A stretch of 64,000 bases of DNA from the NCBI RefSeq assembly GCF_018333235.1, contig NZ_BORP01000005.1, positions 124,001 to 188,000 of the forward strand. Reading direction: 5' to 3'. This stretch comes from Ornithinibacillus bavariensis (GTDB taxonomy: Bacteria > Bacillota > Bacilli > Bacillales > Amphibacillaceae). The translations under genes were made by a program, and so were the position numbers. Within the stretch, counting starts at the first letter, position 1; each line of letters begins with the position of its first letter. Positions 6,493-48,357 of the stretch are shown here, piece after piece. The notes under the pieces were generated by a model, which was not told the DNA's origin, did not search any database, and saw only the letters and a program-made list of their open reading frames with translations.

Positions 6493-6557
6493 TTCCTCCC
6501 TTTTATTTGTATCAATATTTTATTACTGACTAAATGGTAAGTTATAATTTTACATGT

Positions 6558-6595
6558 GTCAAGTGTAATTTTACAAAAGTTAAATTATACTTGAC
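6558..6595. promoter_or_regulatory. Candidate TetR operator between divergent doxX-like and tetR genes
   Basis: Two 14-bp arms (6558-6571 and 6582-6595), GTCAAGTGTAATTT and its complement with one mismatch, are separated by 10 bp. The repeat lies midway between the divergent genes, where a TetR dimer or dimer pair would control both. Confidence 0.6.
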
Positions 6596-6651
6596 TTTTT
6601 TTCAGTAAGTGATAAGCTGGTGTTATTAGATTTTGCATGGAGGGTATCTTG

Positions 6652-7245
6652 ATGGGTAAAATACGTAATGCAGAACGGACACAAAAGAATATTCTAGAAG
6701 CTGCGAGAAATGAGTTTTTCAATAAGGGATTTAAGGGAGCACGTATCGAATCGATAGCAGAGAATGCGGGTGTGAAAAAACAGTTAATTTATCATTACTA
6801 CAAGGGTAAAAAGGAATTATATGAAGCCGTTTTGGCAAATTTGGCAACAAGTGGTCCGGAATGGGCAACCCGAGTTCCAGATAATCCGCAACATATTGCC
6901 GAGCATCGATACAATGTAAATAGTAAGGAGAGAGCGGACTTTATTAAGTTTACAGCTTGGCAGGCGCTTGAGTCACAAGCAGATCAAACTTCTTGGAATA
7001 AAAGCGGGGAACTTGCACTTCAATCCTATGTAGCGTACTGGAAAGAACAAAAGGATAAAGGAGTTTTGCCACCTGACCTCGAACCAGAACTTTTGGCACT
7101 GGCAATCACCGCTTTAACAACGTATCCCATTATCTTCAGTGATATTGCTAAGATATTTACCGGAAGCGATGAATCCGATCCTGAATTTCAAAGAAGATGG
7201 TCAGAATTTCTTACCAATCTTAGTGGACATATTATTAAAAATTAG
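6652..7245 (+). CDS. TetR/AcrR family transcriptional regulator
   Basis: About 197 residues. The N-terminal helix-turn-helix (about 8-55) includes IESIAENAGVKKQLIYHYYK, the classic TetR recognition-helix pattern ending in the Y-Y-K that leads into helix 4. The C-terminal half is a ligand-binding TetR_C domain with no recognisable ligand. I choose ATG 6652 (MGKIRNAERT) because GGAGGG lies seven bases upstream; an ATG at 6637 overlaps that ribosome site. It is divergent from the DoxX-like gene with a shared inverted repeat, so autoregulation and control of doxX are inferred. Bases 7246-7444 hold no gene. Confidence 0.9.
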   Translation: MGKIRNAERTQKNILEAARNEFFNKGFKGARIESIAENAGVKKQLIYHYYKGKKELYEAVLANLATSGPEWATRVPDNPQHIAEHRYNVNSKERADFIKFTAWQALESQADQTSWNKSGELALQSYVAYWKEQKDKGVLPPDLEPELLALAITALTTYPIIFSDIAKIFTGSDESDPEFQRRWSEFLTNLSGHIIKN

Positions 7246-7444
7246 AAAAGCTCACATTCACTCATACCTTTGCGAAAGTGTTAGTTTTTATTAAACTGAG
7301 TTCGTCAAAATATAACTACATTGAATACATTACCTCGCTATAGCTGTGTATTAATTTTTTCATAATGTAGTTCCCTTACCTCACGATTATGGAAGGCAAT
7401 ATTTATACTAACGACAATCGGTTCTGTTTAAATTTTATAATCAA

Positions 7445-23309: not shown

Positions 23310-24299
23310 TTAAGAAATTTCCCCTGTTTCATGATTATTTTTAATCATAAAATTAGTAAGCATCTCACGAACTTCATCCGTTGACTCTGTCGCCATTAAA
23401 TCATTTCGTAATTCACTTGCCCCTCTAAATCCCCGGACATATATCTTAAAGAAGCGACGTAGAGGTCTAAATGGACGTGGTTCATATTCTTTGGAATATT
23501 TATCATGTAAATCAAGCTGCAATCTTAAGAGATCTAGTAATTCCTCACTACTATGTTCTTTCTTCTCTTTTTCAAAGGCAAACGGATTTTTAAATACACC
23601 ACGCCCAATCATAACACCATCTACACCATATTGATCAACAAGTTTTAGGCCAGTTTGACGGTCAGGAATATCGCCATTGATTGTCAAAAGTGTATCAGGT
23701 GCCACCTCATCCCGAAGCTTCTTAATCTCTGGAATGAGCTCCCAATGAGCATCAACATTACTCATTTCCTTTTTTGTACGCAAATGTATGGAAAGATTTA
23801 CGATGTCTTGCTTCAATACATGTGTTAACCAGTCACGCCATTCGTCTACTTCCGTATAACCAAGTCTTGTCTTAACACTAACAGGCAATCCTCCCGCTTT
23901 TGCTGCTTGGATTAATTCTGCGGCAACCTCTGGACGCCGTATAAGACCACATCCCTTTCCTTTTGGTGCCACGTTTGGTGCAGGGCAGCCCATATTGATA
24001 TCCAAACCCTTAAACCCTAATTCTGCCATCCCAATACTCATTTGGCGAAAATATTCGGGCTTGTCTCCCCAAATATGGGCAACAATCGGTTGTTCATCCT
24101 CTGTAAATGTTAAGCGCCCACGTACACTTTGCTGGCCATCTGGGTGACAATAGCTCTCCGTGTTTGTAAACTCTGTAAAAAACACATCTGGTCTCGCTGC
24201 TTCGCTAATTACATGACGAAAAACAACATCCGTCACATCTTCCATTGGTGCAAGTATAAAAAACGGTCGTGGTAAATCACGCCAAAAATTATCTGTCAT
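23310..24299 (-). CDS. tRNA-dihydrouridine synthase (YfjN/DusC-like)
   Basis: A 329-residue FMN enzyme that reduces uridine to dihydrouridine in tRNA. It shows the N-terminal FMN loop LAPMEDVTD, the catalytic Cys105 in [11 protein letters not shown], conserved VKTRLGY, HLRTKKE and GVMIGRGVF (phosphate-binding), and the C-terminal helical tRNA-binding domain (about 245-329) with [17 protein letters not shown]. Its closest layout is the Firmicute YfjN group. It is a monocistronic unit with a terminator. Confidence 0.92.
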
Positions 24300-24869: not shown

Positions 24870-25349
24870 TTAGTAAATAGAATCACATAATTCCACTTGA
24901 ACATCTTCAGGTGCATTTTCTAATCGATGATAAAATTCTAAACTCCAATTTTCACGTGCACGCTGTAAACCTTTGTCAGCTATCCATTGATGTAACTTCT
25001 CATAACTATTCATGATTGAGTAAATTGGTCCATTGTGCATGGTAGTAGCGTATCTTTGTGGTGGAACAGTAAGGGTAACCATATCATTAGGGATATCGCT
25101 ATATTCAGATACTTGTACACAAACCCAGTAGCCATCTTGATCATCAGTTGATGCATCAACTACAAAAGCACCTACTTGCCTACCTGAATGTAATACGTTT
25201 TTAATTTCCGTAGTTCTTTCCTTAAGTAAAGCTGCTGCTTTTGAGATTTCTTCTTGATATTTATTTCCTTCACAAACGACACGAAATCCTACTAATCGGA
25301 TTTCTCCTAATTCCTTAATTGCCTTTTCGTCAATACTATTCTTTGACAT
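24870..25349 (-). CDS. GyrI-like small-molecule-binding protein (copy 2)
   Basis: A 159-residue stand-alone GyrI/effector-binding (SOUL-BRE1/GyrI-like) domain protein. Its sequence runs parallel to the upstream neighbour: LGEIRLVGFRVVCEGNKYQE, RTTEIKNVLHSGRQVGAFVV, DGYWVCVQVSEY, VTLTVPPQRYA, and a C-terminus ending DSIY. Such domains bind hydrophobic cations or, in Sbmc/GyrI, protect gyrase. Here the AraC regulator upstream carries two domains of the same fold. The three genes look like an operon made by domain duplication. The function is unknown; ligand buffering or sensing is an inference. Confidence 0.82.
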   Translation of the reverse strand: MSKNSIDEKAIKELGEIRLVGFRVVCEGNKYQEEISKAAALLKERTTEIKNVLHSGRQVGAFVVDASTDDQDGYWVCVQVSEYSDIPNDMVTLTVPPQRYATTMHNGPIYSIMNSYEKLHQWIADKGLQRARENWSLEFYHRLENAPEDVQVELCDSIY

Positions 25350-25410
25350 ATAATAGACATCCCTTCTTCTTAATTTCTGTTATTTTTACTATTAAGCATA
25401 CGTGCAACAG

Positions 25411-25995
25411 TTAATAAATCGAATTGTACAATACTACTTCAAGATCATCAGGGACGTTTTCATTGATTTCGAATTGTTGATAGAATTCAAGATTCCAACA
25501 ATCATTGGCACTTTTTATTCTTTTACGAATCAACCATTCCTGCAACCTTTCGTGACTTTTCCTTATTAAGTGTTTATGTCCTTGGTGTAATGTAATTGCG
25601 TATTTTTGTGGAGGTACTGTTAATGAGACCATATCTTTAGGAATATCTTCGTATTTAGATACTTGAACACTAACCCAATAACCGTCTTTTTCCGATGGAA
25701 ACTCCTCTACTATAAAAGCACCTATTTGCTTTCCAGAATTCAATACATGCTTAATCTCATCAGTTCTTCTATGTAGCAAATTGGCTGCTTTCGGTATTTC
25801 TTCTTGATATTTATCTCCTTCACATAAAACACGAAAACCTACTAATCGTATTTCTTCTAAATCCTTAATAAAATAGTTATGTTCGGTTTTCCTGTTTTCG
25901 CTTTTACCTAATAGAACCTTTAATGAACGTGGTTTTGGTTGGGGTTTAAAATCTTCAATAGGTAAGAGATTTTCAAGAGGTATCGCTTCACTCAT
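25411..25995 (-). CDS. GyrI-like small-molecule-binding protein (copy 1)
   Basis: A 194-residue protein. A 45-residue polar N-terminal extension (MSEAIPLENLLPIEDFKPQ) precedes a GyrI-like domain nearly colinear with copy 2 (LEEIRLVGFRVLCEGDKYQE, DGYWVSVQVSKYEDIPKD, VSLTVPPQKYAITLHQGHKH, ending YNSIY). Its start overlaps the AraC stop by 8 bp, so it is translated with the regulator. Tandem duplication explains the similarity to the next gene. Confidence 0.82.
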   Translation of the reverse strand: MSEAIPLENLLPIEDFKPQPKPRSLKVLLGKSENRKTEHNYFIKDLEEIRLVGFRVLCEGDKYQEEIPKAANLLHRRTDEIKHVLNSGKQIGAFIVEEFPSEKDGYWVSVQVSKYEDIPKDMVSLTVPPQKYAITLHQGHKHLIRKSHERLQEWLIRKRIKSANDCWNLEFYQQFEINENVPDDLEVVLYNSIY

Positions 25996-27343
25996 ACCAT
26001 TTGCTCCTTTCTATTATAGGTATATAGCAACGAACTGTAATCTCTTTGTTTATGGAAGTGTGATATAGTGCAAACCACTGTCTTGAATCATCAATGATAT
26101 ATTTTTCTTCTGATACAATCCAACGATGGATGATTTCCAAAACTCCCATTAATGATCCGTAGGACTTCGTTTCAATTGTAGCGAATAATCCACCGCCCAA
26201 CATCTTTTTATCAATAGTAGAATCGCTAATGCTATCAAGCCTTGACAAGGTGGTTATACCATATTCACACCAGTTTTCACGATCGTTTTCGTTTCCATAA
26301 TTGTAGGATAAATATAACTGACAATTAGCAAAGTCAATTGGTAAATCTGTTTCTAACCATTTTGATAGAGTATTATCAGCATCCGCTTGGGCACTTTCCC
26401 CATAACTTTTACTATAAGCAACCCAAAATGGCTCTACCTCTTCTACTTTAGCCATCTCTGGTTTCAGCTGACGTTCTATTGGCAGATATAATTTCATACG
26501 TACAAGCTTTTTGTTAAAAGTAATGTACTCTTCTAGATAGGTGTGCGCCCCTTCTGTAAACTGACTTTTCGGTAGCCATTCAGAATACAGTCGATTCCAT
26601 AATGAAATTATATTTTGTTCACATTCTGCTGATATTGATCCAACCGCATACAGCCCACCTTGAATATTTTTTATTTCCATTCCTTCTATTGAATCATAAA
26701 TAGATTCTTCCACAGGAACCAGCATTTCATAGGCGAAAACCTCGGTGGAATATTCTGAATTCCCATGGTACTCCGAGTCTATATTCCGTCCAAAATATCT
26801 AATTTTCTTATTGTTCATATGCGATTTTTGTATTAAACTTTGAACAATATTAAATGCATCCTTTTCAATTCCTTCGATACAATTGGCTTTATGTTTATAG
26901 CTGAATACAGTCATATCCTTTAGACGGAGTACCTTGACATCCGGATATCTATCAAACAAATCGCGCCCCTCGAGGTAATTTACCTTTTCGAATAGATTAA
27001 TATATTCAAAGCAATAATATATATCCGATTCTTTATATACCTTTGGCGTAACACCTACTATTTTTTTGAATGACTTCGAAAAAGATGCTTGTGATTCAAA
27101 ACCACATGCCAAAGCAATATCTAGGACTGTATTGTTTGAGTTTTTCAGATGTTCTGAAGCAATGCTAATTATTCTTTTACGCATGTAGTCTTTGACTGGA
27201 TGTCCAGTAAGAGAATAAAACATCCGATATAAATGTGGAAGTGACATTGAGGCTACCTTTGCTACTTCTTCTAATTCCACTTTGTCCTCCATATGTTCTT
27301 CTATAAAATCAATTGCTGCCTGAACACTTTCTATGTAATTCAT
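25988..27343 (-). CDS. AraC family regulator with two GyrI-like effector domains
   Basis: A 451-residue regulator. The N-terminal AraC/XylS double helix-turn-helix (about 1-105) shows VELEEVAKVASMSLPHLYRM, VLDIALACGFESQASFSKSF and the VGVTPKVYKES ending. Two consecutive GyrI-like effector domains follow (about 130-290 and 300-450). The Rob/BmrR type has one such domain; two in one chain, plus two free copies in the next two genes, is unusual. It heads a three-gene operon with an 8-bp overlap. The likely role is drug or hydrophobic-ligand sensing. No efflux gene is adjacent, so its targets are unknown. Confidence 0.87.
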   Translation of the reverse strand: MNYIESVQAAIDFIEEHMEDKVELEEVAKVASMSLPHLYRMFYSLTGHPVKDYMRKRIISIASEHLKNSNNTVLDIALACGFESQASFSKSFKKIVGVTPKVYKESDIYYCFEYINLFEKVNYLEGRDLFDRYPDVKVLRLKDMTVFSYKHKANCIEGIEKDAFNIVQSLIQKSHMNNKKIRYFGRNIDSEYHGNSEYSTEVFAYEMLVPVEESIYDSIEGMEIKNIQGGLYAVGSISAECEQNIISLWNRLYSEWLPKSQFTEGAHTYLEEYITFNKKLVRMKLYLPIERQLKPEMAKVEEVEPFWVAYSKSYGESAQADADNTLSKWLETDLPIDFANCQLYLSYNYGNENDRENWCEYGITTLSRLDSISDSTIDKKMLGGGLFATIETKSYGSLMGVLEIIHRWIVSEEKYIIDDSRQWFALYHTSINKEITVRCYIPIIERSKWYE

Positions 27344-27595
27344 TATTCACCACCTTTCTAGAAAAAACATACGTTGGATAGATGATTAAGGAATTATTTC
27401 CTTACTGTTACTATAACAAACAATTAAATTATACTTTTGTCCATTTTTATCAAATTATAGTACACTCGTTCACGAATTTTAACAAAGATATCTAAATATT
27501 ATTTTCCTCAGAGATTAACTCAGAAGAATTGTAAAATAATAAATCACAGTAAAGTAACCACCTTAAAAATATCCTCTGTTCCGATCATCGAACAA

Positions 27596-27630
27596 AGAAG
27601 GTACTCTCCTTAGTAAGAAAAGTACCTTCT
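27596..27630 (-). terminator. Terminator of the VOC gene
   Basis: Stem AGAAGGTACT / AGTACCTTCT with a 15-nt loop, then TTTG on the minus strand, about 60 bp after the VOC stop. The stretch 27344-27595, upstream of the AraC gene, has no gene. Confidence 0.6.
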
Positions 27631-27689
27631 AGTTAAAGAGATAATAGATAATGCCTTATTTTAAAATATCCACCTTTTCCATAAAGTAA

Positions 27690-28064
27690 CTAACCATTAC
27701 AAATCATTACAACATTTTTATCAGGATCACTAATATTAAAGAAAGCAAAATCATCAAATTCAATAATATCGGATTCTATTTGATAGCCTAACCCTATTAT
27801 ATATTCAAAGGACTTTTGAATGTCATCCGTATAAAAGTTAAACAGTGGATGTGGTGACGGACTTATTTTTTTAGTTGCGTCTAAAGGACCTGCATCCAAA
27901 GTAAGTCCAGTGTATTGATTCATTTGTAAATTATGAACTGGTCTTGAAACTTTTGTTAAGTCTATCTCTTGATTGAGCAATCGACTGTACCATTTGACAG
28001 ACCTTTCTAAATCACTTACATGGACAAAAACTGTGTTCATCTTATTTCTAATTGGGCTATTCAT
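27690..28064 (-). CDS. VOC (glyoxalase/dioxygenase fold) family protein
   Basis: A 124-residue single-module VOC protein with the typical opening TVFVHVSDLERSVKWYSRLL and C-terminal FFNISDPDKNVVMIC. One metal-ligand-like His (HVSD) and the C-terminal Asp/Asn region are seen, but not the full glyoxalase I set, so the activity is open. A 17-bp element shared with the ECF sigma gene lies 48-64 bp upstream (28112-28128), and an ECF sigma gene ends just beyond. Control by one of the ECF factors is a reasonable guess. Confidence 0.83.
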   Translation of the reverse strand: MNSPIRNKMNTVFVHVSDLERSVKWYSRLLNQEIDLTKVSRPVHNLQMNQYTGLTLDAGPLDATKKISPSPHPLFNFYTDDIQKSFEYIIGLGYQIESDIIEFDDFAFFNISDPDKNVVMICNG

Positions 28065-28111
28065 CTTTTATCTCTCCTTGTATAGTTTATTAATCCCTTT
28101 TACGGAATCTA

Positions 28112-28128
28112 TACTTATACAACGAATG
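28112..28128 (-). promoter_or_regulatory. Element shared with the ECF sigma gene promoter region
   Basis: Minus strand CATTCGTTGTATAAGTA, 16 of 17 bases identical to 13929-13945. It is positioned as a promoter for the VOC gene, 48 bp upstream of its start codon. The shared motif could be an ECF -10 region or a common sigma-A promoter. Confidence 0.4.
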
Positions 28129-28154
28129 AATTAATGAAAACCTTACATATGTTA

Positions 28155-29183
28155 TTAAAAAATATGATAAAAATATTCTGCATTTAAATTTACCTTTAAC
28201 TCTTTAGCAACCAATCTCATAATATCCCAAGAAAAACAGTAAAATTTCCAATATGTTATTTTATCATCTGCTGTCTCTATGTAATGAACGTTATTCAAGT
28301 AAAGCTGATTATCGTGTTTCATTTCTAATTCAATAACTACTGGGCGACCCCATAGCATTTTGTATTCAGATACAATAATATGTTGATTTTTTACAATCTC
28401 GTGCCAATCCTTTAGAGAGTTTTTCTTCGTTTCATCAGATCCCAATTCAATGCCAGAGTGAGTAATGTCAGTAACTATATTTTCATCTAATATAGATGAA
28501 ATTAATTTTGGATCTTTTCTTCTAAACCCTTCCAGTAAAATTTCTATTGCTTTATTAAACGCAATATCCTTTGTGTTCGTTTTAACCTTTTGTGTTTCAT
28601 TTTTCTCTCCTTTCCGCAGTTTTTCTCTTGCTCTACTTAAATTTGTGTGTATTGCTCCTTCAGTCGTTCCAATAATCTCTGCAACTTCTTTTCCTTTATA
28701 TTTAAAAGCATCTGATAATATCAGTACAACATACTGCATAGGAGTAAGATTTGACACCAAGAAATCAATGTTTTCGAACAGTTGGAACTCACCTTCATAA
28801 GGCACATTCTTTAAAGATTCTTCATTACCTGAGAAACTTATGATTCTTTCTCTTCTTCTTTGATCTATATATAGGTTTGTTGCAATTTTAAATAAATATG
28901 ATTTCGTTTTTACTGGCTGATATAATTTTGCTATTACTGAAAAGGACTTCAACAATGTATCTTGAACTAAATCTTCTGCATCCCAAGGATTACGCGTTAA
29001 ACTATAACAATATCTCCACAAATCTGACCGATATGGTTCAATTTTTTCTTTAAAGTCCTTTTCTAAATTTCTTAAATTATCACTTAGATTATTTAGGTTA
29101 TCGATTCTCAAATTTCTCACCTGCTTAGATATTAATTTTGTATCTCCATCTTTGAAAAAACTGCCCTGTTCGATTACGTACAT
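28155..29183 (-). CDS. ECF-type sigma factor with C-terminal NTF2-like domain (second copy)
   Basis: Up to 342 residues. Region 2 has WDAEDLVQDTLLKSF and SYLFKIATNLYIDQRRRER. Region 4 has KGKEVAEIIGTTEGAIHTNL. A long SnoaL/NTF2-like tail ends MRLVAKELKVNLNAEYFYHIF, which parallels the tail end of the first copy (FMQYVAKELGLPLEP). The ATG at 29183 has only a weak ribosome site. A later in-frame start before EKDFKEKIEPYRSDLW would give a family-like N-terminus, so the first 40 residues are uncertain. The two copies are paralogues, not recent duplicates. Confidence 0.8.
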   Translation of the reverse strand: MYVIEQGSFFKDGDTKLISKQVRNLRIDNLNNLSDNLRNLEKDFKEKIEPYRSDLWRYCYSLTRNPWDAEDLVQDTLLKSFSVIAKLYQPVKTKSYLFKIATNLYIDQRRRERIISFSGNEESLKNVPYEGEFQLFENIDFLVSNLTPMQYVVLILSDAFKYKGKEVAEIIGTTEGAIHTNLSRAREKLRKGEKNETQKVKTNTKDIAFNKAIEILLEGFRRKDPKLISSILDENIVTDITHSGIELGSDETKKNSLKDWHEIVKNQHIIVSEYKMLWGRPVVIELEMKHDNQLYLNNVHYIETADDKITYWKFYCFSWDIMRLVAKELKVNLNAEYFYHIF

Positions 29184-29331
29184 GGTTTCACAACTCTTTT
29201 ATATTAACATAAGAGTCTAAGTAAACTGATACTGATATAAAATCCAACCCGAATAGCTTACTATCAAAGATAAATACTTACTTTCAGATAATACTACTTA
29301 TAGTTCCTTTCAAAAAAAATTGATAAGAAAA

Positions 29332-29372
29332 AAGAACCGAGGAAGCATACCTGTGATACGTCCACGGTTCTT
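29332..29372 (-). terminator. Terminator of the small membrane-protein gene
   Basis: Stem AAGAACCG / CGGTTCTT with a 25-nt loop, followed on the minus strand by TTTTTTC. It lies 155 bp past the stop at 29527. The intervening bases show no gene. Confidence 0.6.
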
Positions 29373-29526
29373 GATTGATTTCAGTAATGAAACAACTATT
29401 GAAAAGATATTGATTTATATTGTTAAAGCATAATTGAAAGAAAAACGATAAAGGTTACACTGTATCGGACTATTAATTAAGGTCATATTAAAACTAACAA
29501 TAGATTTACAAAGGATTCTCTTTCGC

Positions 29527-29709
29527 TTATCTGTCCTTGTTCTTTGTTGATAGGACAAAAGCTATCAATGCAAAGCCACTAAAAATCGATGTTGGGATTC
29601 CATATCCTAATAGATATTCAGAGGTATAACCAGAGGTTAAAACAAAAATAAACATGCCCAAACTAATAAGTAATATTATTAAAACAAACATAGAGATTCT
29701 ATTAAGCAT
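29527..29709 (-). CDS. Small two-helix membrane protein
   Basis: A 60-residue protein starting MLNRISMFVLIILLISLGMF with two predicted membrane helices (about 5-25 and 35-53) and a charged C-terminus STKNKDR. The start at 29709 is chosen for GGAGG six bases upstream; the frame runs 11 codons further without a ribosome site. No family is recognised. It lies in an AT-rich accessory stretch. Confidence 0.55.
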   Translation of the reverse strand: MLNRISMFVLIILLISLGMFIFVLTSGYTSEYLLGYGIPTSIFSGFALIAFVLSTKNKDR

Positions 29710-29841
29710 ACTATTCCTCCATATCTTCTTATTTAGTAACACTGAATCATGATTAATTAATTAAAGTTTGGTTGACAAATAGAACACTTATTAGGAGTAA
29801 AATAATCATGTTTTAGAGTTGTTCTAAATAGTTTAAAAAAG

Positions 29842-30237
29842 CTATTCATTCGTTATCTCAAAAAACTCCCCATTAATTGTTAGATAAGCATCTTCATTTT
29901 CCGTTAAATCCACTGCAGAATCCTTAGATATAAATACAACCGTTACTGACTTATCTTCATTTATTTCAACCGGAAAACTTAACCTCTTGCTCGTCTCCCA
30001 ACCTTCTGGGGCTTGTATCGTAGTATATTCCATCACTTCCACTTCAACATCTTGATAGACTGGCAATTCAACTAATTCAAGTGTCATAGAATCTTTTGGA
30101 TGGATATTTAACACGAAATAGGATGTATCTCCTTCTTTATAAGTACCTGTTGAATACGAAAGTTGATCGAAGTCGATGTTATTGTTGCATCCTGCCAACA
30201 TAGTTAACAACAAAACGAGAAAAATACTTTTACTCAT
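29842..30237 (-). CDS. Small lipoprotein, unrecognised
   Basis: About 131 residues with a lipoprotein signal MSKSIFLVLLLTMLAGCNNN (Cys17) and a small, acidic beta-rich domain ending NGEFFEITNE. The start is ATG 30237 with GGGAAAGG upstream; GTG codons just before overlap that site. No named family is recognised. It sits next to decayed genes and is itself intact. Confidence 0.65.
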   Translation of the reverse strand: MSKSIFLVLLLTMLAGCNNNIDFDQLSYSTGTYKEGDTSYFVLNIHPKDSMTLELVELPVYQDVEVEVMEYTTIQAPEGWETSKRLSFPVEINEDKSVTVVFISKDSAVDLTENEDAYLTINGEFFEITNE

Positions 30238-30356
30238 TACCTTTCCCACCACGTCTTCACAACCTTTAATTTCTTACCTTTTTTGGCTAACAGAATATTT
30301 CGATTTATCTTCATAAGTAACTGTTACTTTACGTATAAATTCACATTCTATTTCTA

Positions 30357-30863
30357 TTAATAGTTAGCTGCTTCTAATCGTTGTTTAATCTTTTCCGATA
30401 TTTCAGGGTTATCTTTACCATGAAACGTATCATATAAGTCACGCATTGAACCCCTAAAGTGCTCAAGATCCTCATAATATAACTAATTTTGTTTAGCCGA
30501 TTCTTGTAGATTTCTACATCCTCATCGGAAACTTTCTCCTCTTGTAATGCCTTATCAATAGACCTCGAAATACATTTCTCCCACTTCTGAAATAGGAAGC
30601 CTAAAATGGTCAAATTGACTTTGCTTATTAATTGTTTCAATTCTAAAGGATCCTATTAAATCCAAGCCATGCTCTGTTTGAAGCGCCTCCTGCATAATCG
30701 AAAGCATATCTCTAACCGAATAACGTGTATCCTGAATTAACAGTAAATAATCATAACCCACCTCAACCTTCATTCTCTTCGCTTCTTTATAAAAATGGGA
30801 ACTAGTAAAAACCAACACAATCACTAACACACTTAACAACTTAATTATTATGTTTTTTTTCAC
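30357..30863 (-). pseudogene. Frameshifted gene for an N-terminally anchored protein
   Basis: One protein can be followed through three frames on the minus strand. It begins at GTG 30863 (GGGGGA ribosome site) with KKNIIIKLLSVLVIVLVFTS, an export or anchor segment, and runs to EMYFEVY. It then shifts to SIDKALQEEKVSDEDVEIYK and RLNKIS. It shifts again to YYEDLEHFRGSMRDLYDTFH and ends EKIKQRLEAANY at 30357-30359. Two single-base events disrupt it, near 30565 and near 30482. The family is not recognised. Unless these are assembly errors, the gene is dead. Confidence 0.65.
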
Positions 30864-31058
30864 ATTATTATCCCCCACTCTATATAAAAAAATATTTCTT
30901 TGAAATTTTCTTGTTCTTTGTCCTAACTCCCCCGTTAACACAACATCTTAATAATTAAATATTAACATAATATTCAAAACAAACATAAAAATAAAGACCA
31001 TCACACTTGATGATCCTTTATTTCACTATCACACCTGATAGCTTAATAGTAACAGTAA

Positions 31059-31157
31059 TTAATCAGCATTAATAGAATGTTTCCCGTTTTTCTTATACCA
31101 GTTCAACGCTTTTACTTCTATTTCTCTAACAAGATGTTCCTTAGTTGCTTCCTAAAA
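31059..31157 (-). pseudogene. Gene tail remnant
   Basis: A short protein-like minus-strand stretch (ATKEHLVREIEVKALNWYKK, then NGKHSINAD and a stop at 31059) is preceded in frame by a stop with no start signal. It looks like the C-terminus of a lost gene. The family is not recognised. Confidence 0.4.
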
Positions 31158-31204
31158 TAGCATGTATAATTTAGTTATGTTAGTTTTGAAATTAGGAGGG
31201 ATTA

Positions 31205-31429
31205 ATGATGATTCAAAGCTCTATAGATAATAAAATCACTGACAAAAATAAACTTAAGATTTTGACATGGAATATTAGACATGGAGGAACAAAGTATACA
31301 CTAGACAAAATTATTCAATCACTTATCTTTCACAATGCAGATGTAGTAGTATTAACAGAATTTAGAAATAACGATAATGACTTTAATATTGTATGGAGAA
31401 AGTACAAAATTATAAAAAGCGTTATCTAA
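31205..31429 (+). pseudogene. Truncated endonuclease/exonuclease/phosphatase family gene
   Basis: 74 codons with a good ribosome site (TTAGGAGGGATTAATG). The product carries the first two EEP-superfamily motifs: LKILTWNIRHGG (metal-binding Asn of WN) and NADVVVLTEFRNN (catalytic Glu). EEP proteins need about 220-280 residues, including the DxN and SDH motifs, which are absent here. The frame stops at 31429. No continuation is visible in the 128 bp before the next gene, so this is a 3'-truncated remnant. Confidence 0.7.
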
Positions 31430-31557
31430 CTAGGAATCGGTAAGAACTTCAACAATCTTTCTAGCGTAATGTTACAAAATTTAATAAATTTGTTAGAAAA
31501 AATAATATATTTGTTATAATATGAATAGTCAGGAAATATTAGAGAGCGAGGGATAGT

Positions 31558-32859
31558 GTGTCTGGAATAGGTGTTCTATTAAAATACTATCGGACTCAAA
31601 AGAAAAAGACACAAACTGACTTATGTATGGGAATATGTACGCCTTCTTATTTAAGCAGGATAGAGAATAACCTAATTGAAGCTGATGATGAAATTTATAG
31701 TCTATTGTTTGAAAGGCTAGACTTATCATATGAAAAAATAATACAGGATAATTGTAATTTGGATCAACGATTAGAAGAATGGTATAAAGACATGTTCTTC
31801 CAAAAAGAGTCCAAGGAAAATATTGAGGAACTTAAAGGATTATGTATGATTTCTAGTCCGGATATTCTTATTAAATTCGAAATTACTTATTGTAGATATC
31901 TAATATTGACTCAGGATATTGAATTATCACTTAATAAGATTAATAGTCTTAGAAAGTTAAGCATACCCGCAGAAAACAACAGAAATTACTTCTTATATGT
32001 TAATGTGCTTTTATTATACCACTTTAGAGTAAAAGAGTATTCAGAAGCGTTGAGAATTGGAATAAAAGCTTCCAACACAGATGGTTTTGAATCTTTAGGA
32101 AAAGACTATGAGGTAGGTGCTTTTTATTATAATTTAGCTCTTAATTATAAAAATCTATACATATACGATAAAAGTAGATATTACGCAGAAAAAGCTTTAA
32201 GGCTGTTCCTTGATAACTATTATCTAGAATTAGCGATTGATTGTCAAATTCTATTGGGAATTAGTTTTAATAATACTGGGAATTGGAGCGATTCCTTGCG
32301 TTCCTATTTAAAAGCAAAACGGTTACTAAACTATTTACCCGAAAAATATCATGACACTTATCTTGGAATGATAGAAAACAATATTGGTTATTGCTATCAA
32401 AGAATCGGTGAATACGAAAAGGCAATAAATTATTATTCGAAAAGCTTAATATATAAAAAGGATAATGAACAACTACTTACATTGATTAATTTAGTACATT
32501 GTCATCATCTTTTAGGGAATTCTAGTAAATCTAAAAAATTATTGATAAAGTCATTAGGTTTAAGAACTGCTAGTAGACCTGTTAATCTCTCATTACAATT
32601 AGATTTTATGAGTTTGATTATACTAGAAGATATTCTTTCTCTAGAAGAAATAATAGAATTGGAACAAATATTTGAAGAGTTAGTTAAAAGAAATTTCCAA
32701 GATGCTATTATTCATTACGGTGAGACGTTAGCTAAATTGTTTGAAAAATATCACCACTATAAAAAAGCTGCTAAGGTTTATAAATCCATATTATATACTA
32801 ATAAGGGGAACTTATCTGGTAACAATCCACGTATTCAGAGAAAAACCAAATATTTCTAA
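31558..32859 (+). CDS. NprR/RNPP-like peptide-responsive regulator (XRE HTH + TPR), cassette 1
   Basis: A 433-residue protein. The N-terminal XRE-type helix-turn-helix (about 1-60) includes TQTDLCMGICTPSYLSRIEN. The rest is helical with tetratricopeptide-like repeats, clearest at ENNIGYCYQRIGEYEKAINY. Length and plan match NprR-type members of the RNPP family (Rap/NprR/PlcR/PrgX), which bind imported signal peptides with their TPR groove. The start is a GTG behind GCGAGGG. A 44-residue exported peptide gene follows 36 bp downstream. A paralogue with the same plan is at 47092-48357. Peptide control is inferred from architecture and context, not shown. Confidence 0.82.
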   Translation: MSGIGVLLKYYRTQKKKTQTDLCMGICTPSYLSRIENNLIEADDEIYSLLFERLDLSYEKIIQDNCNLDQRLEEWYKDMFFQKESKENIEELKGLCMISSPDILIKFEITYCRYLILTQDIELSLNKINSLRKLSIPAENNRNYFLYVNVLLLYHFRVKEYSEALRIGIKASNTDGFESLGKDYEVGAFYYNLALNYKNLYIYDKSRYYAEKALRLFLDNYYLELAIDCQILLGISFNNTGNWSDSLRSYLKAKRLLNYLPEKYHDTYLGMIENNIGYCYQRIGEYEKAINYYSKSLIYKKDNEQLLTLINLVHCHHLLGNSSKSKKLLIKSLGLRTASRPVNLSLQLDFMSLIILEDILSLEEIIELEQIFEELVKRNFQDAIIHYGETLAKLFEKYHHYKKAAKVYKSILYTNKGNLSGNNPRIQRKTKYF

Positions 32860-32895
32860 ATATATGGTTGAATAATATAGAGGGGAGGGACATTA

Positions 32896-33030
32896 ATGAA
32901 AAAAATATTATTAACGTTAGCATTGATGTTAGGGATATACTTTCTTCTGAGTCCGAATCCTTATATAGAAGCATCCATCTTTGAAGAAGATCCAGGTCCA
33001 ATGGATATTGACTATGATAAAGGAGAATAA
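32896..33030 (+). CDS. Exported pro-peptide, candidate Phr/NprX-like signal, cassette 1
   Basis: A 44-residue ORF with a strong ribosome site (GGGGAGGGACATTA before ATG) and its own terminator directly after the stop. The product starts MKKILLTLALMLGIYFLL, a Sec signal, and continues SPNPYIEAS. It ends with a short acidic tail IFEEDPGPMDIDYDKGE that would be released outside. Size, signal peptide and position directly after an RNPP-type regulator match the pro-peptides NprX, PapR and Phr. Which residues form the mature signal is unknown; the C-terminal tail is the likeliest source. Confidence 0.72.
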   Translation: MKKILLTLALMLGIYFLLSPNPYIEASIFEEDPGPMDIDYDKGE

Positions 33031-33085
33031 CTAATAAAACCCTTAAGTCTATTAGATTATTTAATAGCCTCAGGGGTTTTATTAG
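33031..33085. terminator. Bidirectional terminator after cassette 1
   Basis: 12-bp perfect outer stem CTAATAAAACCC / GGGTTTTATTAG, with further pairing inside (TCTATTAG region), located between the pro-peptide stop and the convergent secreted-protein gene. Confidence 0.75.
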
Positions 33086-33086
33086 T

Positions 33087-34181
33087 TTAGTAACCTAAAA
33101 CAGAGGTGACTTTTACGTTGTTCAGATCGAAATGTTTACCAGTCCAAACCAACATTTCTGTAGCATTATCTAGGTACTGTGCTGCCGTTCTACTATAACT
33201 TAGTCTTGCTTGTGTTGCATAAGAGAAAGATGTCATATTTCGGAATATATCAAAAGCAGCTACACTTTGAGATACAAACATTACCCATCCCGGAGGTCCA
33301 GAAAATCCTGCAGCAAACGTTATCATTAAAGTTAATAGTTGCCACCAAGAACCTACCTCAGCATAAGTTTCCGCCATCATATGTCGGATAATATATTCTT
33401 TATAGTTATCAATATTTCGTTGGAATTGTGTGAGGCCATCTGCGTTTTTTCGGTTACCAATAGAATTTCCGGTAACCTGTAGGTATCTCTGAGGAGCATA
33501 ACTTAAAGCCTGAACGGTAAAATTACCATTAAAATTATTCGTATTATAATAATTATCGTATGCACCGTTAGCAGCAGTCAAATGGTTGTCTTCTTCAAGT
33601 TGCGCCATTACTTCCTTTGCCATCTTAACTAAATTATCTAGATGTTCTTGGGTGTAACCTTCAGTTTCTTTATAATCTACTTCTTGTAATTGACTTACTT
33701 GTTGGCTCAGGTACTTCGATAACGAATCTTCCTGATTCGCGCTTAATGTAATAATGGGTTGGTCCATGCTTAAATTCTCTATTAATTGTGTTGATGGTTT
33801 ATCCAGTTCGATTTTATTCTTCTTTTCCAGTGCTTTTCCAGTCGATAAATCGTTAATAAATTCTTCGTGCTTGATGGTACTCTTTAAGAAATTCCCATCT
33901 AAATCATAGTGGTCTTCGATCATATAAAGTATAGTTTGAACTTGATTACCATTACGAATCGTTTCGGTAGTTGAGTTTACTTTATTATACCCAACTTTTT
34001 CCCATAAGCCTTCTTTATTTTTTTCAAGAGTTTCCGTTACGAATGCTTCTGTAATTTTATATTCTTTTAATTCGTCTTTTACAGATGTGGAATCTGCTAA
34101 ACTGACAGCGGGTCCAATCATAGTGACTAATAGCGTTAATATGACACTTAACTGTAAAGTTTTACTTAGTATTTTCTTCAT
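33087..34181 (-). CDS. Secreted protein of unknown function, candidate effector or bacteriocin
   Basis: About 364 residues. A Sec signal peptide (MKKILSKTLQLSVILTLLVT, cleavage likely after SLA, residue 29) precedes a long charged region (30-210). The C-terminal part contains one strongly hydrophobic block (WWQLLTLMITFAAGFSGPPG and following, about 275-310) that could insert in membranes. The start is ATG 34181 with AAGGAG nine bases upstream. I recognise no enzyme motif. It is convergent with, and shares a terminator with, the peptide-signalling cassette. A quorum-regulated large bacteriocin (geobacillin 26-like in general plan) is one hypothesis; I cannot confirm family membership by eye. 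Confidence 0.65.
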   Translation of the reverse strand: MKKILSKTLQLSVILTLLVTMIGPAVSLADSTSVKDELKEYKITEAFVTETLEKNKEGLWEKVGYNKVNSTTETIRNGNQVQTILYMIEDHYDLDGNFLKSTIKHEEFINDLSTGKALEKKNKIELDKPSTQLIENLSMDQPIITLSANQEDSLSKYLSQQVSQLQEVDYKETEGYTQEHLDNLVKMAKEVMAQLEEDNHLTAANGAYDNYYNTNNFNGNFTVQALSYAPQRYLQVTGNSIGNRKNADGLTQFQRNIDNYKEYIIRHMMAETYAEVGSWWQLLTLMITFAAGFSGPPGWVMFVSQSVAAFDIFRNMTSFSYATQARLSYSRTAAQYLDNATEMLVWTGKHFDLNNVKVTSVLGY

Positions 34182-34455
34182 CCTTTGCAACTCCTTTTTA
34201 AATTATAGAAACAGTAAATTTCCGTTATGAAATTCTTTACTCACCCCTTTCCTGAAGTTTTGAAATTTCCTGTCCCTAATTTTATTATACATATTTTTCG
34301 CAATGTTCAGATTTAACAAATCGGTACAATTTGACTAGATAATAACGCGACTTTAGGTCAATTTGCGCAACTTTTAAAATGATTAGATATGTTATACTAG
34401 ATTCCTAGTTTATATTAAAATGATTAGTAATAAAGAGGAGGTAGGGAAGTGATTT

Positions 34456-34974
34456 ATGAAAACAAAATCATTTAAGTATAGGAGTTTGATTTATATTTTA
34501 GCTTCTATCACTTTATTTCTCTTGATTCTTTGTCTTGTAGCATATGGGAAGTATACTGATAAAAAAGAAGAATTTGATAAAGTAAGTTTATATTTATATG
34601 AATTAGAAGTTGAAACCCCTTTGGAAGCTATTCTAAATTACATTGGAACAGGACCAATCGAACTAGTTGATTGGGATAAACAGGGATTACATGAAGAACT
34701 CACTTTTCTTTTTAACAATCTTGATAAAGGGTTATTTAATGTCGATTATCTTGGAACAGAAGTAATTCCTGAAGAAACACTTACACAACTTTGGAACTTA
34801 CAAAAAATAATACAGATCATCGTTAACGATACTTCAGAAGATAGTATAAACAATGAAACGAAAGAGAGGATTATAAAACTCACCAATGCTATTAATTCCT
34901 GTGAAATGATAGGGATTAACAGGAGTTGGAATCAAGTACATTCAGAGTTAGAATGTTTATTGAACAATTATTAA
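34456..34974 (+). CDS. Membrane-anchored protein of unknown function
   Basis: A 172-residue protein with one N-terminal membrane helix (about 10-29, LIYILASITLFLLILCLVAY) and a helical acidic domain outside (about 35-172) containing ETPLEAILNYIGTG and WNQVHSELECLLNNY. No family is recognised. It is divergent from the secreted protein gene across 270 bp of AT-rich DNA with promoter-like sites. It could be an immunity or accessory protein for that secreted product, which is only a context inference. It has its own terminator. Confidence 0.6.
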   Translation: MKTKSFKYRSLIYILASITLFLLILCLVAYGKYTDKKEEFDKVSLYLYELEVETPLEAILNYIGTGPIELVDWDKQGLHEELTFLFNNLDKGLFNVDYLGTEVIPEETLTQLWNLQKIIQIIVNDTSEDSINNETKERIIKLTNAINSCEMIGINRSWNQVHSELECLLNNY

Positions 34975-35818: not shown

Positions 35819-36481
35819 TTATTTTATCCAGACAACTCCCATTGCCCAACCCATATTATAGAATTGGCATCCGGGCAACAACTTTCCATATAAATCGTAA
35901 TAATCTTGTTCAGATAGATACTTATCTGAGGCTAAATGCTCAAGCCATGATTTAGAAGTGTTGTGTTTAAAAACTCTAATCGCATTTTTCATTCCAAATT
36001 TCAAACAATGGGGTAAAAAATCTTGGATTGCTCCTAATACATAAACATAGGTAGGCGGAGTCTCGACCTCAGATACATTATCAAGAATAACTATTCTTCC
36101 TTCCTCATTCAACAGTTCCTTCATTTGCTGTATCACGCTGGGTATATCATTCAAATGATGAAATGTTGTTCGACTTACAATAAAATCAAACTTCTCATTA
36201 AAATTAAGTTGTTCTGCATTCATATTTAAATAAACCGTATTTGTTAGTTGACGCTTCGATTTGGCAAGATTAAGCATCTCATTAGAAATATCAATCCCTA
36301 TAACTTCATCATAATAACTTGCTAACTTCTCCACTAACAAACCCGAACCACAACCGATATCTAATGCCCTGCCTTTCTCTGGAAACATATTAGACAAAGA
36401 GAATGAATAATCATTTAAAAGAGCGTTCACGAAGTCGTATTCTTCTGCAACTTTATCAAACTGTGATTCTGCTGTATTCAA
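35819..36481 (-). CDS. Class I SAM-dependent methyltransferase
   Basis: About 220 residues with motif I ALDIGCGSGLLVEKL (about 38-52), motif II acidic end in VIGIDISNEML, and post-motif FDFIVSRTTFHHLNDIPSVI, the UbiE/BioC-type class I methyltransferase pattern. The substrate is unknown. A TTG start at 36481 (MNTAESQFDKVAEEY) fits the GTGGGG ribosome site; a GTG at 36493 gives four more residues and is the alternative. It is monocistronic with a clear terminator. Confidence 0.82.
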   Translation of the reverse strand: MNTAESQFDKVAEEYDFVNALLNDYSFSLSNMFPEKGRALDIGCGSGLLVEKLASYYDEVIGIDISNEMLNLAKSKRQLTNTVYLNMNAEQLNFNEKFDFIVSRTTFHHLNDIPSVIQQMKELLNEEGRIVILDNVSEVETPPTYVYVLGAIQDFLPHCLKFGMKNAIRVFKHNTSKSWLEHLASDKYLSEQDYYDLYGKLLPGCQFYNMGWAMGVVWIK

Positions 36482-36707
36482 AAAAATCCCCACTTCCTAA
36501 TTTCCTTATATATTAAATATATACTAAGAGTTCACTCTATAACTAATTGAAATAACTTACTTATTCCTTTCCCACTTTTCCGGCTCTAAAATGCACGTTT
36601 TCCCCCCCTCTTTTTCCAACTGTTTTTTCACCTTTTTTCTATGTTGCGTAATGGAAAGAAGAAAAAACCGAGTAAAGACAAGGGATGAACATAAAAAAGA
36701 CCCGGAA

Positions 36708-36780: not shown

Positions 36781-38166
36781 TTAAATAGACAACCTTCTCT
36801 CCAACCAAACCACACTCTCAATATGCATGCTCTGTGGGAACATATCTACTGGCTGGACTTCTTTTGTTTCATATCCACCGTCTTCTAAAATACGTAAGTC
36901 ACGTGCTAATGTTGATGGATTACAAGATACATACACAATCCGCTTCGGACCCATTTCAATCATGGCATTAAGCAATCCTTCATCACAGCCCCTGCGTGGA
37001 GGATCTACTACAATGACGTCCGGCCTTAATCCCTCTTCCTTCCATCTTGGCATAACTTCTTCAGCAGTTCCTACTGCAAATTCGACATTAGTCATTCCAT
37101 TTAGCTTCGCATTCACCTTTGCATCCGCAATCGCCTCCGGAACAACCTCGACACCATAAACCTTTTTAGCTTTCTGTGCTAAGAAAAGAGATATCGTTCC
37201 AATTCCACAATATGCATCAATGACCGTATCTTCCTCATTAATTGCAGCATATTCCAATGCTTTCTCATAAAGTCGTTTCGTTTGTGTCGGATTCACCTGG
37301 TAGAAGGATTTAGCCGAGATAGCAAAGCGAACCTGCCCAATTGAATCATAAATATATTCTTGTCCCCAAAGCACCTTTGTCTGATCCCCTAATATCACGT
37401 TGGTACGTGCAGGATTAATATTATGGATGATGGACTTTACGTTCGGATATGTCTCGGTCAACTCACGAATAAACTCATCTACATGAGGTAAGTTCTTAGT
37501 ACGCGTAATTAATACAATCATCGTTTCCTTTGTTTCTTGACCAGTTCGGACCATAATATGACGCAAGACGCCAGTATGACTTTTCTCGTCATAGGCTTCA
37601 ATCCCTACCCGATTGGCAATTCGTCTTACAGCTTCTACCATCCGATCATTCAAGTCCTCCTGAACGACACATGTGTCCATATCATCAATGATTTGATGGC
37701 TTCGCATTTGATAGAATCCCGTAATCAGCTCTCCATCCTTCTCTCCAACTGGAATGGAAACCTTATTTCGGTATCGCCACGGATCCTCCATCCCAATCGT
37801 TGGGTGTACCGGAACATGGTCCAAATGTGCAATTTTATGCATCACATTTTTAACCTGTTGCTGTTTCATCGCTAGCTGGAGATTGTAGCTCATATGCTGA
37901 ATTTGGCAGCCTCCACATTTGTAGAAGACATCACAAGGAGGCTCGACCCTCTCTGGACTCGGATTTTTCACCTCAAGAAGCTTCCCAAAGCCGAAGTTTT
38001 TATTTACTTTTACTACCTTAACGGTTGCTTCCTCACCAGGAAGTCCATACGGTACAAATAATGGATAGCCATCTATTTTTCCAACGCCGTTCCCTTCATG
38101 GGTTAGATCCTCGAAACGAAGGGTGATGGTATCATTCTTTTTCACTGGTATAGCTTGTTTTGCCAT
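36781..38166 (-). CDS. rlmCD: 23S rRNA (uracil-C5)-methyltransferase RlmCD
   Basis: A 461-residue enzyme. TRAM domain (about 1-68), 4Fe-4S cysteines C78, C84, C87 (CDVFYKCGGC) and C166, SAM motif DAYCGIGTISLFLA, DPPRRGC and catalytic Cys in VSCNPSTLARDL. The locus next to dgkB and gatCAB equals that of B. subtilis yefA, shown to modify U747 and U1939 of 23S rRNA. The window's other RumA homologue (7488-8879) is therefore the extra copy. It starts 88 bp after the dgkB stop. Confidence 0.93.
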   Translation of the reverse strand: MAKQAIPVKKNDTITLRFEDLTHEGNGVGKIDGYPLFVPYGLPGEEATVKVVKVNKNFGFGKLLEVKNPSPERVEPPCDVFYKCGGCQIQHMSYNLQLAMKQQQVKNVMHKIAHLDHVPVHPTIGMEDPWRYRNKVSIPVGEKDGELITGFYQMRSHQIIDDMDTCVVQEDLNDRMVEAVRRIANRVGIEAYDEKSHTGVLRHIMVRTGQETKETMIVLITRTKNLPHVDEFIRELTETYPNVKSIIHNINPARTNVILGDQTKVLWGQEYIYDSIGQVRFAISAKSFYQVNPTQTKRLYEKALEYAAINEEDTVIDAYCGIGTISLFLAQKAKKVYGVEVVPEAIADAKVNAKLNGMTNVEFAVGTAEEVMPRWKEEGLRPDVIVVDPPRRGCDEGLLNAMIEMGPKRIVYVSCNPSTLARDLRILEDGGYETKEVQPVDMFPQSMHIESVVWLERRLSI

Positions 38167-46925: not shown

Positions 46926-47078
46926 TTAAAGGTTAACGCTAAAAGATGTTGCCTTTTGGAAAATAGGTGGATGTGCTTCGCCACCATGAACTAAATCGCT
47001 TTGCTGATTCTCTTGTAAGAACAAGAATCCTCCCATTAAAATCACTCCTAATGCTACTGATGCAATCATTTTTTTCAT
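46926..47078 (-). CDS. Exported pro-peptide, candidate Phr/NprX-like signal, cassette 2
   Basis: A 50-residue ORF with AGGAGG six to seven bases before the ATG, starting only 13 bp after the regulator stop. The product is MKKMIASVALGVILMGGFLF followed by LQENQQSDLVHGG and the tail EAHPPIFQKATSFSVNL. The first 22 residues form a Sec-type signal, and the rest would be exported and trimmed. It has the same plan as the 44-residue peptide of cassette 1, with an unrelated tail sequence, as expected if each peptide is specific for its own receptor. Confidence 0.72.
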   Translation of the reverse strand: MKKMIASVALGVILMGGFLFLQENQQSDLVHGGEAHPPIFQKATSFSVNL

Positions 47079-47091
47079 GAACTATCCTCCT

Positions 47092-48357
47092 TTACAAATT
47101 AACTACTTCCTCAAATGTGAGGTTAGCTAGTTTATAGTATTTTACAGAGTCCTTATACCTTCCAACATCTTCAAAATGCTTTGCTAACATTTTTGAAAAT
47201 AGAATTAAATTAGCATGGTCCTTATGTTTTTTGAGATAAGGGATAAGATCCTCTGTTACTAACGTTGTAAATTTCTCATAGTCACCATTTATTGCATGAA
47301 TATAAGAGTGAATAATATAGTAATATAAATCGTAGAACACACTATTTCTAGCCTGACTTAGGATGACTTTTGCTTGTTCAATTATCTCTAATGCTTTATC
47401 AAAGTTTTGTAGCTTATAATATTCCTTAATAAGGTTTGTAATTGCTATTAATCTTTCATTTATGCCGACTGAATCATCGTCTATTGCTTGAAGATAGTAT
47501 TTAATTGCTTGCTTTGATTCACCCATAACAGCATATAAATAACCTAAGTTTTGATTTGTTAGCTGAATTACATTATTATTCTTGTTCAATTCACCTAAAT
47601 GTCTTGCAAGATTATAATGTTTAATTGCTTTTTGATACATTTTAATTCTCCGATAAGAAATACCTAAAATAATATGGCATTGTGCACAGCGGAGAAAATT
47701 ATATTCTTTTTGAAATATCTCAATCGCTTTATCCGCATATTCGATGGCTTCTAATGTATGTAATAACGTACTGTGTGTGACAGAGATTACATAATATAAA
47801 TCAGCAATTTCACTGTCTGGTAAATTTAAATAGCTTATCTTTCCCTCTGCTAAATTATACATTCTCAATGATTGATTGTACTCATTGCTAGTGGTAGCAT
47901 AATTCCCTTTAAATTTGTACCAGTAGTACATTTGTAAGTTATCAAAGTTACCAGAAAGTTCATTTAGGCTGTTAATCTGTTCTAATGCATTATCAAATTC
48001 TCCTAAGATTAAAAAATACCGAATCTTATGAATTTCAAATAACATAAGACTATCAGATCGAACAACAGCAAGTAACTCATTTAATTCATTATACTTATCA
48101 ATCATTTCATTTTTATCACTAGCATCGAAAAGCATATTAAACCACTCTTCACATTTCTCTTTAATGGTTATCGTTTGATCTCCATCAAGATCAATGCCAA
48201 GGCGTGTACAAAGCATACTAACGACTTCTGGGCTTGCCTCTGCTCGGAGGTTTTCTATCTTTGACAAATAGGACATAGAAACAATTCCTTCTGCTAGTTC
48301 TTCCTGTGTCATACCTTTTTTGACACGTTGCAATTTGATAAAGGAGCCTATTTCCAT
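47092..48357 (-). CDS. NprR/RNPP-like peptide-responsive regulator (XRE HTH + TPR), cassette 2
   Basis: A 421-residue protein with an N-terminal XRE helix-turn-helix (about 1-62, MTQEELAEGIVSMSYLSKIE) and a TPR-type helical array (QCHIILGISYRRIKMYQKAI, LGYLYAVMGESKQAIKYYLQ, YYKLQNFDKALEIIEQAKVI). It is paralogous to 31558-32859: both share SYLS-K/R-IEN in the HTH, CQ/CH-ILLGIS in the TPR region and the same length. A pro-peptide gene follows at once. The cassette sits between pruA and the putP unit, so proline genes are candidate targets, though this is only positional. Confidence 0.83.
   Translation of the reverse strand: MEIGSFIKLQRVKKGMTQEELAEGIVSMSYLSKIENLRAEASPEVVSMLCTRLGIDLDGDQTITIKEKCEEWFNMLFDASDKNEMIDKYNELNELLAVVRSDSLMLFEIHKIRYFLILGEFDNALEQINSLNELSGNFDNLQMYYWYKFKGNYATTSNEYNQSLRMYNLAEGKISYLNLPDSEIADLYYVISVTHSTLLHTLEAIEYADKAIEIFQKEYNFLRCAQCHIILGISYRRIKMYQKAIKHYNLARHLGELNKNNNVIQLTNQNLGYLYAVMGESKQAIKYYLQAIDDDSVGINERLIAITNLIKEYYKLQNFDKALEIIEQAKVILSQARNSVFYDLYYYIIHSYIHAINGDYEKFTTLVTEDLIPYLKKHKDHANLILFSKMLAKHFEDVGRYKDSVKYYKLANLTFEEVVNL

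Follow-up and report, generated by a model that had tools for sequence, protein, structure and literature searches.

The locus considered here raises the question of whether a regulator gene and the small open reading frame (ORF) behind it form a peptide-based quorum-sensing system, and if so, which peptide serves as the signal. The two genes lie on the same strand, 36 bp apart, and are followed by a hairpin (Table 1). They are located in the window, by which we mean the whole stretch of 64,000 nucleotides that was analyzed, in a host genome of 3.47 Mb. We put at roughly 90% the probability that they encode an RRNPP quorum-sensing pair, in which a secreted peptide would act as the signal and the regulator, probably acting on transcription only, would sense it. 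This reading draws directly on the gene order, the predicted fold of the receptor, the conservation of the pair, and apparent selection on the peptide stretch FEEDPGPM. The pair is a new one within a large, already recognized class, and its candidate signal is unusually well defined.

Table 1. Coordinates and basis of the features of the cassette in the window.
Feature	Position	Strand	Basis
Putative extended -10 promoter TTTGTTATAAT of receptor gene	31510..31520	+	Upstream in 4 of 8 lineage receptors
Receptor, 433-aa HTH-TPR RRNPP-type regulator, GTG start	31558..32859	+	Pfam, PDB, AlphaFold, fold match
HTH domain, residues 8-59, holding GIC[T/S]PSYLSRIEN	31579..31734	+	Pfam, alignment
Ribosome-binding site GAGGGGAGGG of propeptide gene	32880..32889	+	Sequence
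Propeptide gene, ATG start, 44 aa, MKK signal-like start, acidic tail	32896..33030	+	Homologous plasmid ORF
Predicted pheromone FEEDPGPM	32980..33003	+	Same peptide in Virgibacillus plasmid pair
Alternative predicted pheromone EEDPGPM	32983-33003	+	EEDTGPM in Paucisalibacillus globulus
Terminator-like hairpin at cassette end, also facing convergent gene 33087-34190	33029..33087	+	RNA fold

A receptor of NprR-like build

The original prediction had described the larger gene product as an NprR-like regulator combining an HTH domain with a TPR array, and its domains and predicted fold agree with this. HTH_3 (residues 8-59) and TPR_12 (residues 271-336) both score above their Pfam cut-offs, and the HTH motif listed in Table 1 is common to all eight aligned rows of the receptor's lineage. 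With the single sequence as query, the best PDB match was NprR of Bacillus thuringiensis (4gpk, E 2.9e-13); in the profile search that had been proposed, run here with an eight-row profile, NprR was matched at E 2.6e-26, and only engineered consensus TPR chains ranked higher. An AlphaFold model built from 44 rows was all-helical (pLDDT 91.4, pTM 0.85). The fold searches used a fused receptor-propeptide model, the receptor part of which is of equal confidence, and the top Foldseek matches were RapI, NprR, and RapH.

Structural alignment with VIA-align gave Z-scores of 29.4 for RapJ with CSF, 27.1 for apo NprR, and 26.6 for NprR-NprX, with Rap of phi3T and RapJ-CSF spanning 28.4-29.4 and the RapF and RapH chains 23-24. 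AimR reached 18-20.5 and unrelated TPR proteins such as LGN up to 22.8, so that, as modeled, the best Rap and NprR chains score above other TPR proteins and AimR does not. The alignment to NprR (5dbk) covered model residues 63-416 (Z 27.1, rmsd 3.5, 345 aligned), and the Rap-like fold begins at residue 63. The model thus predicts the TPR superhelix that characterizes RRNPP receptors, together with the N-terminal HTH that they usually carry, and it has the NprR-type build of HTH, three-helix bundle, and TPR superhelix, the fold having been matched as a whole and not per TPR unit.

Among the known systems, Rap-Phr pairs thus have the top structural scores, but Rap is described as being without an HTH DNA-binding domain (excerpt of PMC9765709), whereas the window protein has one. 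The AimR-AimP arbitrium system also comprises an HTH-TPR receptor and a downstream propeptide (excerpt of PMC9765709), but AimR matches the model no better than LGN does. A phage origin was also considered. The receptor had no tblastn relative among 50,697 phage records, and no relative was found among 29 pattern matches in viral contigs; a phage family of unassigned function, phrog_5208, does match the TPR part (residues 70-416, E 1e-12).

The closest likeness is to NprR-NprX of B. thuringiensis, which shares an HTH plus Rap-like TPR receptor, the best natural PDB match, and a propeptide gene directly downstream (excerpt of PMC9765709). The window receptor is, however, only 18-22% identical to NprR in structural alignments. 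In B. thuringiensis NprR, residues D107, Y118, E188, and Y223 contact Spo0F, and mutating each of the four abolished sporulation inhibition (excerpt of PMC4970707). In our alignment, on which these assignments depend, the equivalents in the window receptor are S, Y, V, and Y, and the E188 equivalent is V, I, or L in all eight lineage rows tested. As two of the four contact residues are replaced, a role as Spo0F phosphatase, as in NprR or Rap, appears unlikely, and the receptor is probably a transcription regulator only. Most residues that contact NprX or lock the groove are changed as well (R126 to Q, W167 to Y, H201 to N, Y165 to K, R343 to P; likewise alignment-dependent), and the peptide would therefore be held differently than in NprR. 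The equivalents of W79, Y118, Y223, and the dimer residue Y410 are retained, and N407 aligns with A.

We further placed the receptor in a tree of 47 rows, rooted at the midpoint, from which the copies of genome G254 and Virgibacillus were absent and in which one row (L049c) was partial. The eight lineage rows formed one clade with moderate support (91/96), and a branch with 100/99 support parted them from the common NprR-like receptors of these genomes and from B. thuringiensis NprR, itself flagged as a long branch. These results bear on whether the receptor could be bifunctional like NprR, binding and dephosphorylating Spo0F without peptide and switching to DNA binding with it. That NprR is the nearest solved relative, that the Rap-like fold is present, and that four of the key residues are retained would fit such a protein, but the replacement of D107 and E188, the latter throughout the lineage, the loss of function upon mutating any contact in NprR itself (excerpt of PMC4970707), and the separation in the tree, with its long-branch caveat, make it unlikely. 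We therefore class the receptor as an RRNPP protein of NprR-like build and not as an NprR: the likeness originally proposed holds for build and fold and does not extend to identity with NprR.

The propeptide gene and its candidate signal

The small ORF behind the receptor has the ribosome-binding site and the Sec-type signal that had been proposed for it, the latter assessed solely from charge and hydrophobicity (an MKK start and a hydrophobic core with a best 11-residue mean of 2.8). A terminator-like structure also follows, as proposed: the RNA of positions 33022-33090 folds into one long hairpin of -26.4 kcal/mol (shuffle mean -10.6, z -5.6), which none of 200 shuffles equaled. This hairpin was absent from the output of a simple terminator scan, probably because its long arm includes the T run.

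In line with the expectation that the small ORF would be kept in relatives, a small secreted ORF lies behind or overlaps the receptor 3' end in nine of ten lineage copies, the window included, each with an MKK or MRK start, a hydrophobic core, and a ribosome site; no propeptide was found behind the receptor in the remaining copy (L004, Ornithinibacillus halotolerans). In two loci, the propeptide gene starts 59 (L051, 7271-7329) and 80 bases (L052, 7274-7353) before the receptor end in another frame, so that receptor tail and signal sequence overlap in the DNA. As a control, every non-overlapping ORF of 120 aa or more in the window and loci L046-L052 (124 in total) was checked for an accompanying small ORF that is on the same strand, is 30-60 aa long, starts at most 100 bp from the stop, and has a ribosome site, a basic N-terminus, and a hydrophobic segment. 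Such an ORF followed 10 of the 11 RRNPP-type receptors and none of the 113 other ORFs. The eleventh receptor (L049, 5971-7272) had no qualifying small ORF; one of the ten others, L049 1654-2586, lacks its N-terminal part in the ORF call, but its whole frame matches in the homology search. In wider, overlapping sets of NprR-like receptors, a plausible small ORF lay close behind 29 of 34 (a candidate at 291 bases in L033 excluded) and 26 of 45 (a candidate at 152 bases in L061 excluded, and L052, at -80 bases, outside the scan).

Alternatively, the receptor may be genuine while the secreted product of the small ORF serves a different function, such as that of a small antimicrobial or membrane peptide. 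A weak NCBIfam match to a RiPP precursor points this way (limited to residues 1-14 and, at 17.5 bits, below the cut-off of 34), as does the model in which receptor and propeptide were folded as one chain, with Gly in place of the stop codons that separate the two in-frame ORFs: the pLDDT was 28-40 over residues 421-490, giving the tail no confident position. The pairing in nine of ten lineage copies, its recurrence in the wider sets, and a short conserved core within a variable tail, as in pheromones, make this explanation very improbable. We thus retain the reading of a receptor with its own propeptide, which domains, fold, gene order, and pairing all support as originally proposed.

The mature signal is usually the part of an RRNPP system that is hard to predict from sequence. 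Here, a diverged relative with an exactly matching peptide narrows the signal to seven or eight residues, which can be synthesized and tested. This nearest relative is a pair on a 313-kb plasmid of Virgibacillus halodenitrificans Bac324 (NZ_CP033050.1; WP_121616695.1 and WP_276208389.1, both annotated as hypothetical), with a receptor that is 57% identical, a 44-aa propeptide that contains exactly FEEDPGPM (tblastn E 1.4e-7), and a hairpin dyad after it. It differs in its plasmid location, its flanking genes, and a perfect 9-bp dyad upstream that is absent in the window. The FEEDPGPM codons of the two pairs are identical at 23 of 24 bases, the single change being silent, whereas the remainder of the ORF is identical at 57 of 108 bases. 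Across the first 411 codons of the receptor, no codon-phase window out of 403 reached 23 of 24. At the protein level, 14 of the 403 receptor windows of eight residues were also identical, so that the core is not unique in this respect. The two propeptides have 17 of 44 residues in common, eight of them in one run, as was reached in 808 of 200,000 permutations. Taken together, these comparisons indicate that selection acts on the FEEDPGPM stretch. Because it is identical in the diverged plasmid pair and the DNA is best conserved there, the mature signal is most likely FEEDPGPM or EEDPGPM.

The remaining tails of the lineage vary around this core: NEEDTGPM in P. globulus, DLDIGPM in Caldibacillus, DVDVGPM in G254, DLEPKPM in Compostibacillus, EDYPGPL in Terrihalobacillus, EDHPEPF in O. 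halophilus, and YEVGPDPF in O. halotolerans. In all nine tails, P is followed by M, L, or F, with at least two acidic residues among the preceding five, compared with an average of 0.70 of nine for shuffled tails; this count is descriptive, as the motif was chosen after viewing the tails. A degenerate pattern coding for EEDPGPM occurred in one of 397 genomes of the order, at the window's own locus. Two matches to this pattern in viral contigs were rejected, as their frames had no resemblance to a propeptide.

The tail had been thought to be unlike any known signal peptide, a view that did not hold. The core P-x-[P/I/V]-hydrophobic is also found in the NprR-type tails EPSIL, EPSVF, and EPDPF, with HPDPQ and others fitting in part, and NprX (SSKPDIVG), likewise located within its tail, has a P-x-[I/P]-hydrophobic core (excerpt of PMC4970707). 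NprX has a lysine where the window peptide (F)EEDPGPM is acidic.

The mechanism that we infer, from joint transcription of the genes through maturation, re-import, and binding of the peptide to the sense of regulation, is as follows. Receptor and propeptide would share a transcript that starts at a promoter 5' of the receptor gene; a gapped-word search of the 300 bases upstream of eight lineage receptors, with the Virgibacillus and G254 copies outside the set, returned an AT-rich word pair and the word TTTGTTATAAT, the latter in the window, L047, L051, and L052. The genes phr and nprX have their own sigma-H promoter. A sigma-H promoter for the propeptide gene was considered and rejected, since in nine of nine regions the best site was equaled by at least 95 of 300 shuffles. 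The propeptide would be exported by Sec, cut by signal peptidase near A26, and trimmed to (F)EEDPGPM, which would build up outside the cell, re-enter via an oligopeptide permease, and bind the TPR groove, altering HTH DNA binding at target promoters. The host genome encodes eight proteins of the SBP_bac_5 oligopeptide-binding type, which are candidates for the import step.

Distribution of the lineage and the Virgibacillus plasmid pair

NprR-like receptors in the broad sense are common, with a match at E <=1e-3 in 45 of 61 relatives and four in the host genome, whereas the window's own lineage is patchy. Within the genus, 4 of 11 genomes have a match at E <=1e-40; within the family, 6 of 159 have one; and of 397 genomes sampled from the order, 4 have one at 1e-45. 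These sets overlap, and each includes the host genome. The lineage comprises ten copies, of which the other nine are 35-57% identical to the window protein and are hosted by Caldibacillus thermoamylovorans, Compostibacillus humi, P. globulus, O. halotolerans (two copies), O. halophilus, Terrihalobacillus insolitus, genome G254, and the V. halodenitrificans plasmid. Seven receptors of 413-425 aa (L055, L056, L058, L061, L068, L082, L085) had no plausible propeptide; the four placed in the tree (L055, L056, L061, L082) are sister to the lineage. By eye, the ORF starting just behind these receptors is presumably an MFS transporter gene.

NprR has been described in 21 genera, and Virgibacillus is among the hosts of both NprR and AimR (excerpt of PMC9765709). 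Complete genomes have yielded 21 novel RRNPP subfamilies (excerpt of PMC10075063), and the Virgibacillus plasmid pair may already stand in the RRNPP_detector data files of that study. EEDPGP did not occur in the literature searched, Ornithinibacillus was not mentioned among the listed matches on quorum sensing or NprR, and, judged by title and start of abstract, none of the literature combining V. halodenitrificans, quorum sensing, and plasmid was on this pair.

A bolder reading is that the lineage constitutes an RRNPP subfamily of its own, which uses acidic pheromones and has no role involving Spo0F, and that its FEEDPGPM dialect spans a chromosomal island of Ornithinibacillus-type bacteria and a large Virgibacillus plasmid, permitting hearing across genera or between a plasmid and its neighbors. 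We regard this as a tentative possibility. A response of the other genus's plasmid copy to the same peptide would provide a clear-cut example of signaling between genera or between plasmid and host; if there is no cross-response, this would be one more pair in a large known class.

Genomic setting and further receptor-peptide pairs

To place the cassette, whose host genome belongs to the genus-level group of O. halotolerans, O. halophilus, and P. globulus, five congener loci of 19.5 kb each were compared, anchored on gene 36781-38166, which we take by eye to be of the RNA methyltransferase type; genes that had relocated would be missed. Gene 23310-24299, by eye presumably of the dihydrouridine-synthase type, was present in three of the five loci. 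From 24870 to 34974, all ten ORFs that are 90 aa or longer lacked a tblastn match at 1e-8 in the five loci, and ORF 35819-36493 had only a 29% match. GC content per kb was 28-36% at 24-36 kb and 33-43% in the flanks (20-24 and 37-42 kb), a modest difference, and no tRNA gene was found in the window. Because of the ORFs without congener counterparts and the GC shift, the cassette sits in a variable segment that was probably acquired, which accords with its nearest relative being plasmid-borne. Just 5' of the receptor, at 31205-31429 (+), lies a 74-codon Exo_endo_phos remnant that scores under the Pfam cut-off. That the pair itself is an orphan decaying in a genomic island, its function lost, is hardly credible: the truncated remnant beside it and the lack of congener counterparts would suit such a fate, but neither frame is broken, the propeptide ribosome site and the hairpin are likewise undamaged, and window and plasmid copy have the core peptide in common.

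Neither a shared operator nor a convincing conserved target gene was found in the window and the receptor loci. Upstream of the Virgibacillus receptor (L097, 7916-7936), the perfect 9-bp dyad CGACATAAT-ACA-ATTATGTCG is a candidate autoregulatory operator; allowing up to three mismatches, the window contained no match, and 2 of 200 locus shuffles did. Dyads above 95% of shuffles were absent from 8 of 12 regions. The four that were present, located upstream of the Virgibacillus receptor, in L047, in L052, and in the hairpin that follows the Virgibacillus propeptide, had no common sequence by eye. Besides receptors, the cross-matches among the window and seven loci were a small lipoprotein (29842-30252 in the window and 5459-5905 in L049, 35%), a sigma-factor gene (28155-29183 in the window and 7728-8297 in L049, 24%), AraC-like regulators (window, L046, L047), and ABC ATPases (L048, L052), the last two being common families. 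Sigma-70-family genes lie near three lineage receptors: divergent and adjacent in Virgibacillus (L097 7274-7801, -), next downstream in O. halotolerans (L049 7728-8297, +), and 2.4 kb upstream in the window (28155-29183, -). Such genes are common, and their nearness could be chance.

The convergent gene 33087-34190 (-) encodes a rare, secreted-looking protein of 367 aa, with relatives in 3 of 159 family genomes including its own. The other two relatives are not beside a lineage receptor, one being on another contig (G007) and one in a genome without a receptor match (G015). The protein had no plasmid relatives, no Pfam or NCBIfam match at 0.1, and only weak PHROG matches, two in number, at 0.04-0.05. 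A possible likeness to geobacillin 26 found no support among the matches listed.

The window contains a second RRNPP-type pair, in which an NprR-like receptor (47092-48357, -) is followed 13 bp on by a 50-aa propeptide (46926-47078, -) with the tail GEAHPPIFQK; its congener relatives (L006, L007, L011, L012, L014, L021, L025) end in EPSIL, EPSVF, or EPSVL cores. In another genome of the order (G039; L017, 2774 onward), HESHPDP occurs six times in a 118-aa propeptide behind an NprR-like receptor, and four of these copies lie within exact HESHPDPQSVIEVA repeats; NprR propeptides with repeats have been described before (excerpt of PMC9765709). A receptor-propeptide pair like those of Sporosarcina was seen on a contig labeled Arthrobacter beigongshangensis (L078), perhaps a mislabeled or contaminated assembly. 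Finally, O. halotolerans carries three RRNPP-type receptor genes within 6 kb (L049, about 1375-7272), two with propeptides (tails ETEPGPYPE and ELPDPIHR) and a third without, a possible listener that has no signal of its own.
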